Positions 35,790 to 42,598 of a stretch of 64,000 bases of DNA are shown one piece after another. The translations under genes and the position numbers were made by a program. Every line of letters begins with the position of its first letter. The stretch's first letter is position 1. The stretch spans positions 8,114,116-8,178,115 of the forward strand of contig NZ_KI912266.1 in NCBI RefSeq assembly GCF_000235425.2. Direction: 5' to 3'. Source of the DNA: Pseudofrankia saprophytica (GTDB lineage: Bacteria; Actinomycetota; Actinomycetes; Frankiales; Frankiaceae). The notes under the pieces were generated by a model. That model made no database searches. It was not told the DNA's origin and was given only the letters and a program-made list of their open reading frames with translations.

Positions 35790-35924
35790 TGAATTGCCGT
35801 GGGCGGGGCATGCCCGCGACGCCGGGGCATGGGTGGCAGAGTCGGCGGAGGTGCCGGGGTGTGCCTGCTTCCGCCTGACCAGTCGGCGCGGAACGCGGGA
35901 CGAGATCTTGCGGAAGGCGTTGAG

Positions 35925-37010
35925 ATGGATCGGACCGTGACGGCGGGCGCGGCGGGTACGGAACCGCTCGACCTGGCCACCGCGCTCGACCTGCTGCCGA
36001 AGGTCGAGCTGCACTGCCACATCGAGGGCACGATGCGGCCGGGAACGGTTCTCGACCTGGCCCACCAGCACGGGCTGGCGCTGCCAACGGAGAACCTCGA
36101 TGAGCTGTACTCCTACAGCTCACTGAACGAGTTCCTGTCGATCTTCTGGCTGGTGCAGTCGACGCTGGGCGGACGCGACGACTGGGCCCGACTCGGCTAC
36201 GAAAGTGTGGTCGACGCCGCCGCGCACGGCCGGGTCTACGCGGAGATGTTCTTCACCCCTGCCCGGCACCTCGACTCCGGGCAGCGCCTCGCCGACATCG
36301 TCGCCGGCCTCGCCGACGGGATCGCGGCGGCCGAGGCGGAGACCGGGGCGCGGGCGATGCTCATCGCCGACATCGACCGGGCGTTCGGCCCGGCACCCGG
36401 GCTCCAGATGGTGACCGAACTGGGCGAACTACGCCGTTCGGGCGCCCCGGGTATCGAGCGGGTTCTCGGCGTCGGAATGGACTCCACCGAGCTGGGGGTC
36501 GATCCGAAGTCGTTCGTGAAGGCGTACCGGGCGGCGGCCGGCGCCGGCTTCCGGCTGACCGGGCACCAGGGCGAGAACTCGCCGCCGTCGGCGATCGCCG
36601 AGGTCATCGACGTCCTGGGCGCCGAACGCGTGGACCACGGGCTCTCACTGGTGGACGACCCGGAGCTGGTGCGCCGCTTCGCCGCCGAGCGCATCCCGCT
36701 CACCGTCTGCCCGAACTCCAACATCCGCATCGCCAACGCGTTCCCCGCGCTGGCCGAGCACCCCTACCCGACGATGCGCGCCGCCGGCCTGCTGGCGACG
36801 CTCAACACCGACGACCCGGCGATGACCGACCTCGACCTCGGCTACGAATACGCCTCCGTCGCCGAGGCCTTCGACTACACCTTCGACGACATGGTCACCA
36901 TCGCCCTCGACGGCGTCGAGGCCACCTGGCTCGACGCGGACGCCAAGCGCGCGCTGCGCGACCGCGTTACGCGGGCCGCCGAGGACCTACGTTCCCGACT
37001 GGCTGAGTAG
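35925..37010 (+). CDS. add: Adenosine deaminase
   Basis: A 361-residue zinc enzyme converting adenosine to inosine. Motifs are PKVELHCHIEGTMRPGTVL (HxH), TGHQGENSPPSAI (His plus catalytic Glu region), VDHGLSLVDD and TVCPNSNIRI, and the late Asp pair in LNTDDPAMTDLDLGYEY. Length is normal. The ATG at 35925 has GGAAGG eight bases upstream. It is co-oriented with the 8-oxoguanine deaminase-like gene, about 290 bp downstream, with a palindromic repeat between. Adenine deaminase-type members of the same family are the alternative. Confidence 0.93.
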   Translation: MDRTVTAGAAGTEPLDLATALDLLPKVELHCHIEGTMRPGTVLDLAHQHGLALPTENLDELYSYSSLNEFLSIFWLVQSTLGGRDDWARLGYESVVDAAAHGRVYAEMFFTPARHLDSGQRLADIVAGLADGIAAAEAETGARAMLIADIDRAFGPAPGLQMVTELGELRRSGAPGIERVLGVGMDSTELGVDPKSFVKAYRAAAGAGFRLTGHQGENSPPSAIAEVIDVLGAERVDHGLSLVDDPELVRRFAAERIPLTVCPNSNIRIANAFPALAEHPYPTMRAAGLLATLNTDDPAMTDLDLGYEYASVAEAFDYTFDDMVTIALDGVEATWLDADAKRALRDRVTRAAEDLRSRLAE

Positions 37011-37370: not shown

Positions 37371-37868
37371 GATGATTTGAGCCCCCGAATGCTCCGTGCT
37401 TCCTTGTGTGCGTTGCACTGTTCCGTCCAACAGCGTGCCCGCCGGGATCACCGGCATCTTCTAGTTCGGCTCCATGCCTGCGCTCCAACCCGTGTTCAGA
37501 CCACGACCAGATATGAGCAAAGCCGCGGACACTGAGCCGCCCACCAACTTTCGATTCGTGTCGATGAGCGACGTCACCAATGAGTACACAGGGCGAATAC
37601 CCCCGCAGCCAGACGGTCAATTCCGCGCACGCGGCATCGTTGCTGGGAGAAGCCTGGTAGTTCCGGGTTGGGGCCATCATGATCCCAGCCGGAGTTCGAC
37701 CGATCCGTCGAGAGCCCATCCCGTGTCCGCCACCACCGCACCGGGCAACGGTCAGCCTCCATCGCAGCGCAACCACTCGCTCAAGTGGGGCTCACTCTGA
37801 ACGCAACCTCGGCAAGGCACATTGGGCTACCATGGACTCCACTGGGATCACCATGGAGGGGGGTGGTC
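37371..37868. other. Divergent promoter region of island pair 1
   Basis: A 498-bp spacer between the small membrane protein and the HTH protein, similar in size to the 499-bp spacer of pair 2. GC content is lower than the flanks. Repeated CCATGG (37831, 37851) is seen near the HTH gene start. No strong palindrome comparable to the one in pair 2 was found. Confidence 0.35.
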
Positions 37869-38918
37869 GTGGCTCCCAGACCACGGCGAACTCCTCCGCC
37901 CTTGGCACGCCGCCTGAAGGCCCTGCGGACCGCAGGGCCACGCCAGCTGACGCAGTCGAGCCTGGCCAGGTTTCTGCATGTCGGCGAGTCGACGGTATCC
38001 AGCTACGAGACCGGCCAGGCCGCCCCCGGAGACGAGACGCTCCGGATCTACGCCACGTTCTTCGCGACCTCTCGATCCCAGTCCAACGGGCAGCTGCGCG
38101 TCCTGAACGAGGACGAGCTCTCCGGACCGGAGCGCGAGGAGCGGGACTCCCTCCTCGGCGAACTCCTGCGGCTTCGGGATGGCGCCTCGTCGAGCCGCGC
38201 GCAGGGGCGACGAGGCACCTGGGATTTCACGGACGACACCCCGGTCCGACTCGTCTGCGGCAAGATCCCCGCGGGGGACGTCTCCAGCCTTGCCGAGCCG
38301 ACGAACCCCAATTTCACGAAGCTGCTCACCTACGCGGACCTCGACGCGATGGTGGAGCTCTTCGGCCACATCCGCGCCGAGAACCCGTCGACCGACGTCC
38401 GCTTCATGCAGCCCGACGACATGTCGGACGCCGACCTCTCGTATCATGTAGTCGTCCTCGGCGGCCTCGGCTGGAACCAGACGACCGGATCCTTCCTGGC
38501 GCTTCTCGACGACCTACCCGTTCAGCAGGTCGACAGCGATGATTTCCCAGACGGCGAGTTCTTCACCGTCAAGATCGACGACGGAGAGCCGCGGCGTTAC
38601 GTTCCACAGAAATCCAGGAACGCGGCCTTCGGCCTCGTGGAGGACGTGGGTTTCTTCGCTCGCTACCCAAACCCCTACAACTCGGCGACGACCTTGACCA
38701 TCTGCAACGGCGTACATTCACGCGGCGTCCTCGGAGCCGTTCGGCTTCTTACCAATCCATCGCTGAGCGGTCGCAACGAGGAGTACCTCGCCACGCGCTT
38801 TCAGGACGCACTCAAGTACGTCGTTCTCTTCCGCGTCCCGATTAATAACGGAAAGACGGTGACACCCGAGATAGGCAACCCAAGGAACCGGCTCTTCGAG
38901 TGGTCTGACTTAGGGTGA
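37869..38918 (+). CDS. HTH protein with unassigned C-terminal domain, copy 1
   Basis: A 349-residue protein. An XRE-type helix-turn-helix spans about residues 12-65 (LARRLKALRTAGPRQLTQSS, then STVSSYETGQAAPGDETLRI). After a charged linker, residues 120-349 form a domain I cannot assign, with segments VRLVCGKIPAGD, YADLDAMVELFGHIRAENP, HVVVLGGLGWNQTTG, VGFFARYPNPYNSATTLTIC and RLFEWSDL. The alternation suggests a Rossmann-like alpha/beta fold. GTG 37869 is chosen for GGAGGGGGG six bases upstream. The stop overlaps the glycosyltransferase start (GTGA). The second copy at 41241 is the same length. Confidence 0.8.
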   Translation: MAPRPRRTPPPLARRLKALRTAGPRQLTQSSLARFLHVGESTVSSYETGQAAPGDETLRIYATFFATSRSQSNGQLRVLNEDELSGPEREERDSLLGELLRLRDGASSSRAQGRRGTWDFTDDTPVRLVCGKIPAGDVSSLAEPTNPNFTKLLTYADLDAMVELFGHIRAENPSTDVRFMQPDDMSDADLSYHVVVLGGLGWNQTTGSFLALLDDLPVQQVDSDDFPDGEFFTVKIDDGEPRRYVPQKSRNAAFGLVEDVGFFARYPNPYNSATTLTICNGVHSRGVLGAVRLLTNPSLSGRNEEYLATRFQDALKYVVLFRVPINNGKTVTPEIGNPRNRLFEWSDLG

Positions 38919-40225
38919 CCGGCCCGCGACAATCAGGCGGGAGCCGGTTTGCCCTTTCGCTGGGCCATGGTCATTCGCTGGGCCATGGTGAGCGGCACAC
39001 TGGGCCGGACCACCGCGCCCCGGAGACGGGTCAGGGATCTCGCGAGACCCTCGGGTCGCGTGGACGGCAGAGGGTTCGGGACGCGATCGCAGGCAGCCGC
39101 GCCGCCACGACGGGTGCCAGCGTCCGCCAGTTTCCGGACCATCTCGAGTTCCTCAAGGTCTACCAGCCGGACACCGACAGCGCGCCGGACCTACTGGACG
39201 CAGTGATCGTCCCGACCGTGAGGCCGGCACGCTTCCTCGACGAGGCGGCCACGATGGCATCCGGCTGCAGCCGGCGTCTGATCGTCCTGTGCAGCAGGGA
39301 GGCACGGGCCAGCGAGGTACTGGAGCGTCTCAGCGGCGCCAAGATCGACGTTGTCGCCATCGACATCCCGCCCGGTTACTGGCATGAGACGTTCGATTTC
39401 TCGACCGCGGCGGAGGTCTTCATGCGGCTTTCACCGGTGCCGGTACCGCGCGATCTCAGCCTCAAGCGAAATCTCGGGCTTCTCATGGCCCGCCTCGCCG
39501 GCTGGAAGAAGGTCGTCTTCATGGACGACGACATCTACGGTATCGAGCCGGGCGGTCTCCTCCGTGCCAGCGCCGCCTTGGACTCGAATCCGATATCCTG
39601 TTTCCTCGTCGAGGCCGGCGACGCGGTACACGACCGCCTGCCGACCGAGGACAACTCGGCCGTCTGCCATGCGCTGCGTCTCGCCGGCCGCAAGCAGAAC
39701 GTCTATGCGAGCGGCTCCGCACTCGGCGTGAACTGTTTCGAGGATCTTTCTTTCTTTCCCAACATCTACAACGAGGACTGGTTCTTCATGCTGCGCGAGA
39801 CCGAGCGCGCCGCCATCACGCGCGTCGGCTTCGTCAAACAGCGAGAATACAACCCCTACATCGCCGCCCGCGCCCGTTACGAAGAATTCGGCGACGTGCT
39901 CGCCGAAGGGCTTCTCGCACACCTGCACCTGGGGATATCGAAACAGCCGGACGTTCGGTACTGGCAACAGTTCCTCGAGGCCAGGCGCGTTCTCCTCCGC
40001 GAGATACGCGCGGGTCTTCAGAAGAGCGAGAGCCAATACGCCGCGTCGGCCACGAAGGCGATCAAAGCTTCGCAGAGACAGTTGAGGCTGGTCACCCCGG
40101 ACGCCTGTGTCGAATATCTCAAGAACTTCGAGAGGGACCGACGCGCCTGGGGACGGCGGCTGGACGCCCTGCCACCGCCCACCCTCGATCTGGAGCAGGC
40201 GCTCAGCGACCTGCATCTGCGCTAG
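38915..40225 (+). CDS. GT-A fold glycosyltransferase-like protein
   Basis: A 436-residue soluble protein. The GT-A core starts at about residue 90 (LLDAVIVPTVRPARFLDEA), with KRNLGLLMARLAGWKKVVFM leading into the metal-binding DDD, then an acceptor-side motif FFPNIYNEDWFFML with an Asp that could be the base. No TM segment or signal. The first 75 residues are variable and include an 18-bp DNA repeat (38956-38989, SLGHGH type). It overlaps the HTH gene by four bases. The sugar and acceptor are unknown; the nearest analogy is GT2-type transferases. Confidence 0.75.
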   Translation: MTGPRQSGGSRFALSLGHGHSLGHGERHTGPDHRAPETGQGSRETLGSRGRQRVRDAIAGSRAATTGASVRQFPDHLEFLKVYQPDTDSAPDLLDAVIVPTVRPARFLDEAATMASGCSRRLIVLCSREARASEVLERLSGAKIDVVAIDIPPGYWHETFDFSTAAEVFMRLSPVPVPRDLSLKRNLGLLMARLAGWKKVVFMDDDIYGIEPGGLLRASAALDSNPISCFLVEAGDAVHDRLPTEDNSAVCHALRLAGRKQNVYASGSALGVNCFEDLSFFPNIYNEDWFFMLRETERAAITRVGFVKQREYNPYIAARARYEEFGDVLAEGLLAHLHLGISKQPDVRYWQQFLEARRVLLREIRAGLQKSESQYAASATKAIKASQRQLRLVTPDACVEYLKNFERDRRAWGRRLDALPPPTLDLEQALSDLHLR

Positions 40226-40355
40226 CCCCTCCGCCTGCGCGACGCGCCAGGACCCGCACGGCGGGGCACCGGCGAGACGGCCTGGCCCTGTAGGTACGAT
40301 GACGCAGTCATGACGATCAACGGTGATCCGAGTGATCTGTGGGTACGTGTGATCT
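40226..40355. other. Short gap between the transferase and GNAT genes
   Basis: 130 bp with the near-repeat GTGATC at 40324, 40333 and 40350 just before the GNAT start. No terminator is seen, so read-through from the glycosyltransferase gene is possible. Confidence 0.3.
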
Positions 40356-41057
40356 ATGGGTACAGAGCAGAGCGACGGGGGCGCCGTGGGGCTCGTTGTG
40401 GATGTACCGACCGGTCCGGTGCAGCAGACGCGCCCACCGCTCGACTGCGGCCGGCCGGGCGGTGACCTGGCGAGCATGTGGTCCGTCCAGACCCTGAAGA
40501 AGGACGACTGGTCCCTGCTCAAGGACGTGCGCATCCGGTCCCTCGACACCGCAGCCGACGTCCTGGCCGGTGACCTGGCGACGTTTCTGGACTTTCAGGC
40601 GCATCGGTGGCGGGACCAGATCCGCCACCGCGAGTGGTTCGTCGTTCGCGAGGCGGGTCGGCCGATCGCGGTCGCCGCACTCAACAAGAGCGCTCTCACC
40701 GATCCAGGTGAGTGCGCTGTGATTCAACAGCCACATGCCCACATCGAGTCGATGTGGGTGGAGCCGCACCTCCGCAGGAGCGGCATCGCGAGCAAGCTCG
40801 TGATAGCAGCCATAGAAGAAGTGGAAAAAGAGGTCAATAAAAGCCGGCTCATTGGCCTCTGGGTTTTCGAAAATAACAGAAACGCCGCCGATGCCTTCGG
40901 GTCCATGGGCTTTAAGCGCAGCGGCCAGTATTGCCAGGAGTACCTCGGCGAATCAGAACAGGAACGCCAACGCCCGCCACGTCGCGAATATCACATGCAT
41001 CTGGACCTCGGTGGACAGGGCGTCGCGAGTCTTCGGAAACGCAGCAGGAAGACCTGA
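40356..41057 (+). CDS. GNAT family N-acetyltransferase
   Basis: A 233-residue protein with a GNAT domain at about residues 42-220. The acetyl-CoA loop is VEPHLRRSGIASKLV (R-x-x-G-x-A), preceded by HIESMWV and followed by LWVFENNRNAADAFGSMGF, the usual last strand-helix of GNAT enzymes. The first 40 residues are non-conserved; an ATG at 40476 directly before the domain is an alternative start. Codon use near 40800-40990 is noticeably less GC-rich than the neighbourhood, a sign of recent acquisition. Substrate unknown. Confidence 0.8.
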   Translation: MGTEQSDGGAVGLVVDVPTGPVQQTRPPLDCGRPGGDLASMWSVQTLKKDDWSLLKDVRIRSLDTAADVLAGDLATFLDFQAHRWRDQIRHREWFVVREAGRPIAVAALNKSALTDPGECAVIQQPHAHIESMWVEPHLRRSGIASKLVIAAIEEVEKEVNKSRLIGLWVFENNRNAADAFGSMGFKRSGQYCQEYLGESEQERQRPPRREYHMHLDLGGQGVASLRKRSRKT

Positions 41058-41240
41058 GCAGGCACGCGGCACATTCCCGGCTCCATACGACGGGGCGACT
41101 ATCGGTTTCGATGAGCCGACGCGTTCGTCTGCGCGACCTCAGGCACATGATCATCGGCGAGACCGAGTGTGAGTGACACCTCGACTGTTGGCGATTCTCC
41201 CATTAGCCTTCTAGCCATCGCACCAGTTCATGGCCATCGA
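41058..41240. other. Convergent gap after the GNAT gene
   Basis: 183 bp between the ends of the GNAT and the second HTH gene. No strong hairpin is seen. GC content is moderate. Confidence 0.3.
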
Positions 41241-42284
41241 TCAGATCCTTTCGGGCCACTCGAAAATCCGGACTTCTTCATCATGAAGATCCGGCGTGAT
41301 AGTCCGGCCCCTCAGCACTCGCACGCGCATGAGAATGCCAAATTCCTTGGAGTCGCCGAACCTGTCCTGGATGTAACGTTCGTTACGTTCCTTCAGATTC
41401 CCATCGGTGAGACACCGCACCGAACCCAGCACTCCCCTGGAGTACACGCCGTTGCAGATCGTCAGCGTGCGTGCCCGGTTATACGGATTTGGGGTCCTGA
41501 CCAGAAGACCGACGTCGTCCCGTAGACCGAAGTCAAGGTCCCCAGAAATGGTCGGAACAACTTTCTCCCGGATGCCTTCCCGGTGGATGACGAAGATTTC
41601 CCCTTCGGGATACTCCTCGTCCTCGATCTGCTCGACCGGGAAATCCACCTGACGGCGGTACCAATCCACCGCCTGGTTCCAGCCGAGGCCCCCTAAGAGC
41701 ACCAGGTGACCGGACATGTCGTCCGACACGACGGCCGACGAGGTCCGGAACCGGACGTCCGAGAGCGGATTCTCCGCCCGGATGTGACCGAACAACTCGA
41801 CGAGCGAGTCGAGGTCCGCGTAGGCGAGGAGCTCGGTGTAGTTGAGGTTCTTCGTGGACGTGAGATCGGAACGGACCGTCTCCGGCAGGAGGCCGCACAC
41901 GATCCGTACGTGCGCTCCATCGCCAAAGCGCCAGGTTCCACGGGGAGCATCGGCGCGCGCCGTCGACCCCTTCGAGTCGGGCGCCGCCACGTCCTTCAAG
42001 AAGGTGGTCAGCTGCGCCAATAACGCGTCCCGCCCCGCGCGCTCCTCGGGAGTGACCTCCTCCTCGTCGGCCACCCGCGCCTTCCCGTTCTTGTCCGAGC
42101 GGGGCGCGGAGTAGACCGCCGCGTACTGCTCCAGTCTTCTGATCGGGATGCCACGCGCGGTGTTCTCGTCGGAGGACACGGTCGCCACCGAGACGCCAAG
42201 GACGCTGGCGACCTACGGTTGTGTCAGGCGGGCTTCCTGGCGCAACTCGCGGAGACGACGGGCCAACGCCGAGTTCGACTCCAT
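41241..42284 (-). pseudogene. HTH protein with unassigned domain, copy 2, interrupted by TAG
   Basis: A homologue of the 37869 protein. From the ATG at 42284 the frame reads an XRE HTH start (ALARRLRELRQEARLTQP), meets a TAG at 42213-42215, then continues in frame (VASVLGVSVATVSSDEN) through the whole domain to a TGA at 41241. Counting the TAG as one residue gives 347, against 349 for copy 1. Conserved segments include RGTWRFGDGAHVRIVCG, YADLDSLVELFGHIRAENP, LVLLGGLGWNQAV and VGLLVRTPNPYNRARTLTIC. A GTG at 42188 could restart translation without the full HTH. Nonsense mutation, or TAG read-through, are the options. Confidence 0.75.
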
Positions 42285-42301: not shown

Positions 42302-42319
42302 TTCGGTGTCGACACCGAA
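42302..42319. promoter_or_regulatory. 18-bp perfect palindrome, candidate autoregulatory operator
   Basis: TTCGGTGTCGACACCGAA is a perfect inverted repeat whose near end is 18 bp upstream of the ATG of the second HTH gene. The position suits autorepression by a dimeric HTH protein. No equivalent was found in front of copy 1. Confidence 0.5.
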
Positions 42320-42598
42320 TTTCAAGAAGATCACAAATGTCGATGTATGGGAAGCGTACCAGGAGGTCGCCACAGACGGCTAAGTTGAGTAGGTGCGCGC
42401 TTCCGGGGAGTCACTAGCACCAGATTCGCCTTCCCCGCAGGCTTCGTCGGCATGTTGGTTCTACAGTGTGAGTAACTGGATCGCCTTGAGTTCAGCGAAT
42501 TCCTTCAGAGATACAGCGGGATTTACTGAACTTCACCAGACGCGACGGAGGTGAGCCTCAAAGAAGCCACGGATGCTTCGGGAGCGCACAGCAGAACA

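Follow-up and report, generated by a model that had tools for sequence, protein, structure and literature searches.

An in-frame TAG within the helix-turn-helix of a second-cassette XRE-type regulator in Pseudofrankia saprophytica: most likely an incipient pseudogene

The window that we analysed is a stretch of 64,000 nucleotides from Pseudofrankia saprophytica (contig NZ_KI912266.1), and the features at the locus of interest are compiled in Table 1. They belong to a cassette that consists of an XRE regulator, a gene for a GT-A-fold enzyme positioned directly downstream, and a GNAT gene. As judged from tblastn searches with the window genes against 21 loci, a set in which three genomes are present twice, this cassette (window positions 37863-41057; loci L072-L087) occurs in Pseudofrankia, Pseudonocardia and Kribbella. 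A GT match adjoins the regulator in each of the 16 loci derived from genome contigs, and a GNAT match was found in 15 of them, locus L086 being the exception. The cassettes sit between a DUF6986 gene and a gene (35799-37010) that, from a reading of its sequence, we take to be adenosine deaminase-like.

Table 1. Features of the cassette locus (coordinates in the window).
Feature	Position	Strand	Remarks
R1, intact paralogue (copy 1)	37863..38918	+	GTG start
GT1, predicted GT-A-fold enzyme	38915..40225	+	overlaps R1 by 4 bases; ends with TAG
GNAT acetyltransferase, first cassette	40356..41057	+	tblastn, profile search
183-base gap, site of GT2 and GNAT2 in BMG5.36	41058..41240	.	no recognisable GT2 remnant, save perhaps a few bases past the stop of R2
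R2	41241..42284	-	XRE-type HTH and C-terminal domain; 347 codons including the TAG; terminal TGA; most probably an incipient pseudogene
In-frame TAG, codon 24 of R2	42213..42215	-	sequence, orthologue alignment
R2 ATG start	42282..42284	-	position coincides with that of the ATG in four intact orthologues; purine-rich stretch upstream
GAAATTC, operator-like core upstream of R2	42317..42323	-	putative function

In Pseudofrankia sp. BMG5.36, two such cassettes are arranged tail to tail, in the order R1, GT1 and GNAT1, followed by GNAT2, GT2 and R2. Compared with this arrangement, the window retains R1, GT1, one GNAT gene and R2, and it is missing GT2 and GNAT2. The remaining GNAT protein matches GNAT1 of BMG5.36 at 45.6% versus 26.9% for GNAT2, and when GT2 of BMG5.36 was searched against the whole genome from which the window stems, GT1 was the sole match (40%). 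A search of the 183-base gap for GT2 remnants gave chance-level matches only, apart from the possible few bases listed in Table 1.

The C-terminal domains of R1 and R2 are ~46% identical, and no Pfam family matched this domain of the regulator. Likewise, no NCBIfam family matched the part of R2 that follows the TAG, the only sequence of the two regulators scanned against that library. A structure model of R1 (mean pLDDT 85.3) retrieved nothing from Foldseek at an E value of 0.001 or better, and a profile search of solved structures with the regulator returned matches to the HTH alone. VIA-align placed the R1 model onto BcsB domains (Z ~10 over ~165 residues) and onto GH67 alpha-glucuronidases (Z ~9 over ~124 residues), matches from which we draw no function for the C-terminal domain. 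An assignment of R1 as RmrA was rejected, as the underlying PADLOC matches span only the HTH.

The R2 frame runs on the minus strand from 42284 to 41241 and reads MESNSALARRLRELRQEARLTQP, TAG, and VASVLGVSVATVSS, followed by the complete domain and the terminal TGA. Upstream of the TAG, it encodes 23 residues of the helix-turn-helix. Four orthologues from the genus are open from the matching start, so that the stop in R2 stands where they are open; the alignment with these orthologues includes the codons immediately preceding the TAG, and the part that follows it is 70, 65, 59 and 59% identical to them. The R2 frame contains no second stop and no frameshift besides the TAG. Given the homology on both sides, the open orthologues and the lack of any other stop or frameshift, the in-frame TAG is, by this sequence comparison, far beyond what chance would produce. 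Hence, the claims of the earlier note that a TAG interrupts the HTH of the second regulator copy amid homology on either side, and that no other lesion is visible up to the TGA, are borne out. Its statement that R2 is within two residues of the length of copy 1 needs to be corrected: the difference amounts to four, with 351 residues for R1 when counted from its GTG versus the 347 codons of R2. A flag for a TGA inside the R2 orthologue of Frankia nepalensis CN7 (G004) traced back to the end of that gene itself, which comes a few codons early, and not to an internal stop.

The codon aligned with the TAG is CAG, CAC, ATG and ATG in the four intact R2 orthologues, none of them a stop, and AGC, AGC, ACG, GCG and ACG in the five R1 paralogues. 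This position varies freely among the homologues, and Gln occupies it in only two of the 18 intact ones (the 19 rows of the alignment minus R2 itself). The assertion that Gln is found here in many homologous HTHs is consequently weak; the Gln that is common to nearly all homologues sits two residues before the TAG and is intact in R2. The TAG could have arisen in one step from a CAG such as the CN7 orthologue (LTQPQVA) possesses. The proposal of the earlier note that one CAG to TAG exchange explains the stop is thus feasible, as CAG is found in one of the four orthologues, although the ancestral codon is not proven.

The earlier note had left the choice between a recent event and a codon that is read through. 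Readthrough or suppression would mean that the TAG is decoded at a low level and that full-length R2 is made, a reading that we regard as very unlikely. The scant decay past the TAG would suit it, and according to the argument of one survey, dN/dS values stay below 1 for many bacterial genes with in-frame stops (PMC7918605). However, a young mutation accounts equally well for the scant decay, and the TAG is present in none of the four orthologues. An intact RF1 is encoded in the genome, with a score over the profile cut-off, and TAG terminates two neighbours of R2, the adenosine deaminase-like gene and GT1; of the 24 long frames with high GC3 in the window, three end with it.

No tRNA able to decode TAG came to light among the tRNA genes that we inspected. 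The genome contains 70 matches to RF00005 at an E value of 0.001 (75 at an E value of 10), and in the fetched stretches ARAGORN assigns a tRNA at each of these 70 places, its tally showing 71 ends as one tRNA is split by a locus edge. A tRNA with the anticodon CTA, a search for which had been proposed in the earlier note, is not among them. Four other weak RF00005 matches yielded no ARAGORN tRNA, and a wider anticodon pattern gave five matches, all of them ordinary tRNAs with TCTAG in the D arm. The published annotation of the matching genome, that of Frankia sp. CN3, counts 79 tRNA genes (PMC3622958), which leaves nine unaccounted for with respect to the 70 reported here, so that a tRNA may have been missed.

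An earlier, narrower anticodon pattern located one tRNA-like element with a CTA loop (G000:C1:4618710-4618738; G000 is the genome containing the window). We consider it an improbable suppressor tRNA, since ARAGORN makes no call there and its tRNA score of 16.1 bits falls short of the gathering score (29). The half with the T arm overlaps a match to YrlA (E 1.2e-6), in which a D-arm-like piece comes after the T arm and not before it; the stretch matching YrlA misses the CTA loop itself by a few bases, and a TROVE-domain gene is found ~1 kb away. From its sequence, this element is likely part of a Y RNA-like RNA rather than a tRNA. A weak tRNA-Arg(gcg) call that adjoins it, counted within the 70, may be an element of the same kind. 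Taken by itself, this region (L111, 156-563, and L106, 5880-7478; G000:C1 near 4615900-4618770) displays two YrlA matches with tRNA-like modules close to a TROVE (Ro60-like) gene; their scores, 38.3 bits for the match at the CTA-loop element and 25 bits for that at the tRNA-Arg call, are both below the YrlA gathering score of 69. Elsewhere in the genome, 23 tRNA genes are crowded on one strand within ~2.6 kb (L048, 78-2679; G000:C1:4297777-4300378). This array is possibly of mobile origin; each of its anticodons occurs a second time in the genome, with the second Arg gcg being the doubtful tRNA-Arg near the YrlA match.

The TAG stems from the single available genome of the species, and an error in sequencing or assembly might have created it; of the readings weighed here, we hold this to be the most improbable. 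A substitution is not the usual type of 454 error. The absence of the neighbouring GT2 and GNAT2 genes is independent of the TAG base, and the matching published draft of Frankia sp. CN3 (9,978,592 bp in two scaffolds) combined 38x coverage by 454 with 447x by Illumina and included finishing (PMC3622958).

To view R2 in the context of the genus, we searched eight genomes (G000-G007). A full GT2 gene is present in four of them, that of a strain labelled 'EuI' (G001), and those of Frankia sp. AgB1.9 (G003), F. nepalensis CN7 and BMG5.36 (G006), and R2 is intact in all four. Three genomes contain other parts of the cassettes and no full GT2, and R2 is broken or absent in each of them: the genome of the window, G002, where R2 is a fragment with in-frame stops, and G005. 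In the latter (L117, 3885-10193), a GT2 gene cut to ~161 residues and a GNAT match are found between the adenosine deaminase-like and DUF6986 genes, and a search for R1 and R2 detected neither of them. Neither R2 nor GT2 was matched in G007. Although the numbers are small, this pattern fits a decay of R2 after the loss of its partners, and these comparisons indicate that duplicate cassettes are being lost piecewise at one locus in several species. However, orphan R1 genes that are intact without GT1 in G001 and G003 argue against a strict link between partner loss and decay. In a Pseudonocardia MAG (L084, 5064-10229), an R-GT-GNAT cassette is followed by a convergent second regulator without a detected GT gene, a layout like that of the window; this regulator is cut by the end of the contig.

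How long ago R2 was interrupted can be gauged from its remaining sequence. Of 102 residues that do not vary among the other nine homologues, R2 keeps 98, compared with 98 of 105 for the intact protein of BMG5.36 and 98 of 103 for that of CN7. Because these residues are retained and a second lesion is missing, the nonsense change looks recent, and this part of the earlier note's alternative is therefore supported, while readthrough is left without positive support. Over the 347 codons, R2 and its BMG5.36 orthologue differ at 81, 57 and 152 first, second and third codon positions, respectively, an excess at third positions which implies that constraint acted on R2 during most of the divergence from BMG5.36. 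With CN7 used to polarise the changes and the TAG codon excluded, those in R2 comprise 34 synonymous and 30 nonsynonymous ones here versus 32 and 12 in BMG5.36 (30 of 64 versus 12 of 44 nonsynonymous; Fisher p 0.046, uncorrected). For R1, polarised with G001, the corresponding values are 33 and 13 here versus 37 and 7 (p 0.21), and a comparison of the R2 with the R1 branch within the genome of the window gave a p value of 0.074. Amino-acid relative-rate tests with four outgroups were not significant (chi-square 3.26, 0.20, 0.09 and 0.0). Collectively, these data provide only a hint of relaxed selection on R2, with synonymous sites that may be saturated.

The region preceding R2 carries conserved features as well. 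In R2 and in its four orthologues, GAANTTC cores precede the start by 35 to 39 bases, and they are present in none of five R1 upstream regions, a comparison made without a chance control. With its conserved start and these operator-like cores, R2 may still be transcribed. Translation might then restart downstream of the TAG, for instance at the GTG at 42074 (codon 71) with an AAGG five bases upstream of it, and the resulting HTH-less C-terminal domain could pair with R1 and dampen it. The conservation of the C-terminal domain and its occurrence in both regulators are in keeping with such a restart, which we nevertheless consider unlikely: only weak matches to ribosome-binding sites precede the ATG, GTG and TTG codons among the first 140 codons, the HTH is present in all four orthologues from the genus, and a pairing of R1 with R2 is hypothetical. 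An adaptive switch, in which R2 yields either an HTH-less domain by restart or traces of the full-length protein by readthrough and thereby tunes R1 of the remaining GT1-GNAT cassette, would accord with the repeated occurrence, in related genomes, of a second regulator that lacks a GT partner (G001, G003, and perhaps L084); it strikes us as quite unlikely.

The data lend themselves best to the view, which we hold with good confidence, that R2 is an incipient pseudogene. It would be the regulator of the second, tail-to-tail copy of the three-gene cassette. The loss of the GT-A and GNAT genes from this copy, apparent from the comparison with BMG5.36, probably relieved R2 of most of its selective constraint. 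Subsequently, a recent exchange of one base would have turned codon 24 into a stop and ended R2 within its helix-turn-helix, where the stop is now found; we infer both its recency and its place in this order of events. With translation expected to end after 23 residues, no DNA-binding R2 would be made, and the intact R1-GT1-GNAT cassette would carry on alone. Several observations weigh against R2 as an incipient pseudogene. The intact orphan R1 genes and the second regulator of L084 indicate that partner loss need not end selection, the conserved start and upstream region of R2 are also expected of a gene in use, and the relative-rate test is not significant. The excess of published over detected tRNA genes and the existence of a tRNA-like element with a CTA loop point in the same direction. 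For a duplicate gene in decay, a recent nonsense mutation is an ordinary event; a by-product of use is the conserved cassette of XRE regulator, GT-A-fold enzyme and GNAT, with a C-terminal domain of the regulator that goes unnamed in the scanned libraries.

With regard to known proteins, R1 (35.0 bits) and the R2 orthologue at L002 (28.7 bits) pass the Pfam cut-off of 27 for HTH_31 (PF13560) and resemble XRE-family regulators with this domain; they differ from them by a C-terminal domain without a Pfam family. For R2, the scan covered the part behind the TAG, which reaches 13.9 bits for HTH_31. GT1 has no Pfam match, and the best Foldseek match of its predicted fold is MtdL (7xpu; E 1.8e-8), a GT-A-fold protein from which it differs by an identity of just 18% and TM-scores of ~0.44. 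The titles and abstract openings of the papers listed on P. saprophytica pseudogenes, on premature stops in Frankia and on Ro60/Y RNA contain nothing on R2. The study by Belinky et al. (2021; PMC7918605) describes in-frame TAG/CAG alternation in bacteria and argues that many such genes are not pseudogenes. R2 is like these cases in its single in-frame TAG, in the CAG of one orthologue and in its conserved downstream part. However, the focus of that study is on stops found in at least two species, whereas the TAG of R2 is found in one genome, and its partner genes have been lost as well. On the best reading of its sequence, R2 would hence be of a kind that is already known, a young nonsense pseudogene.
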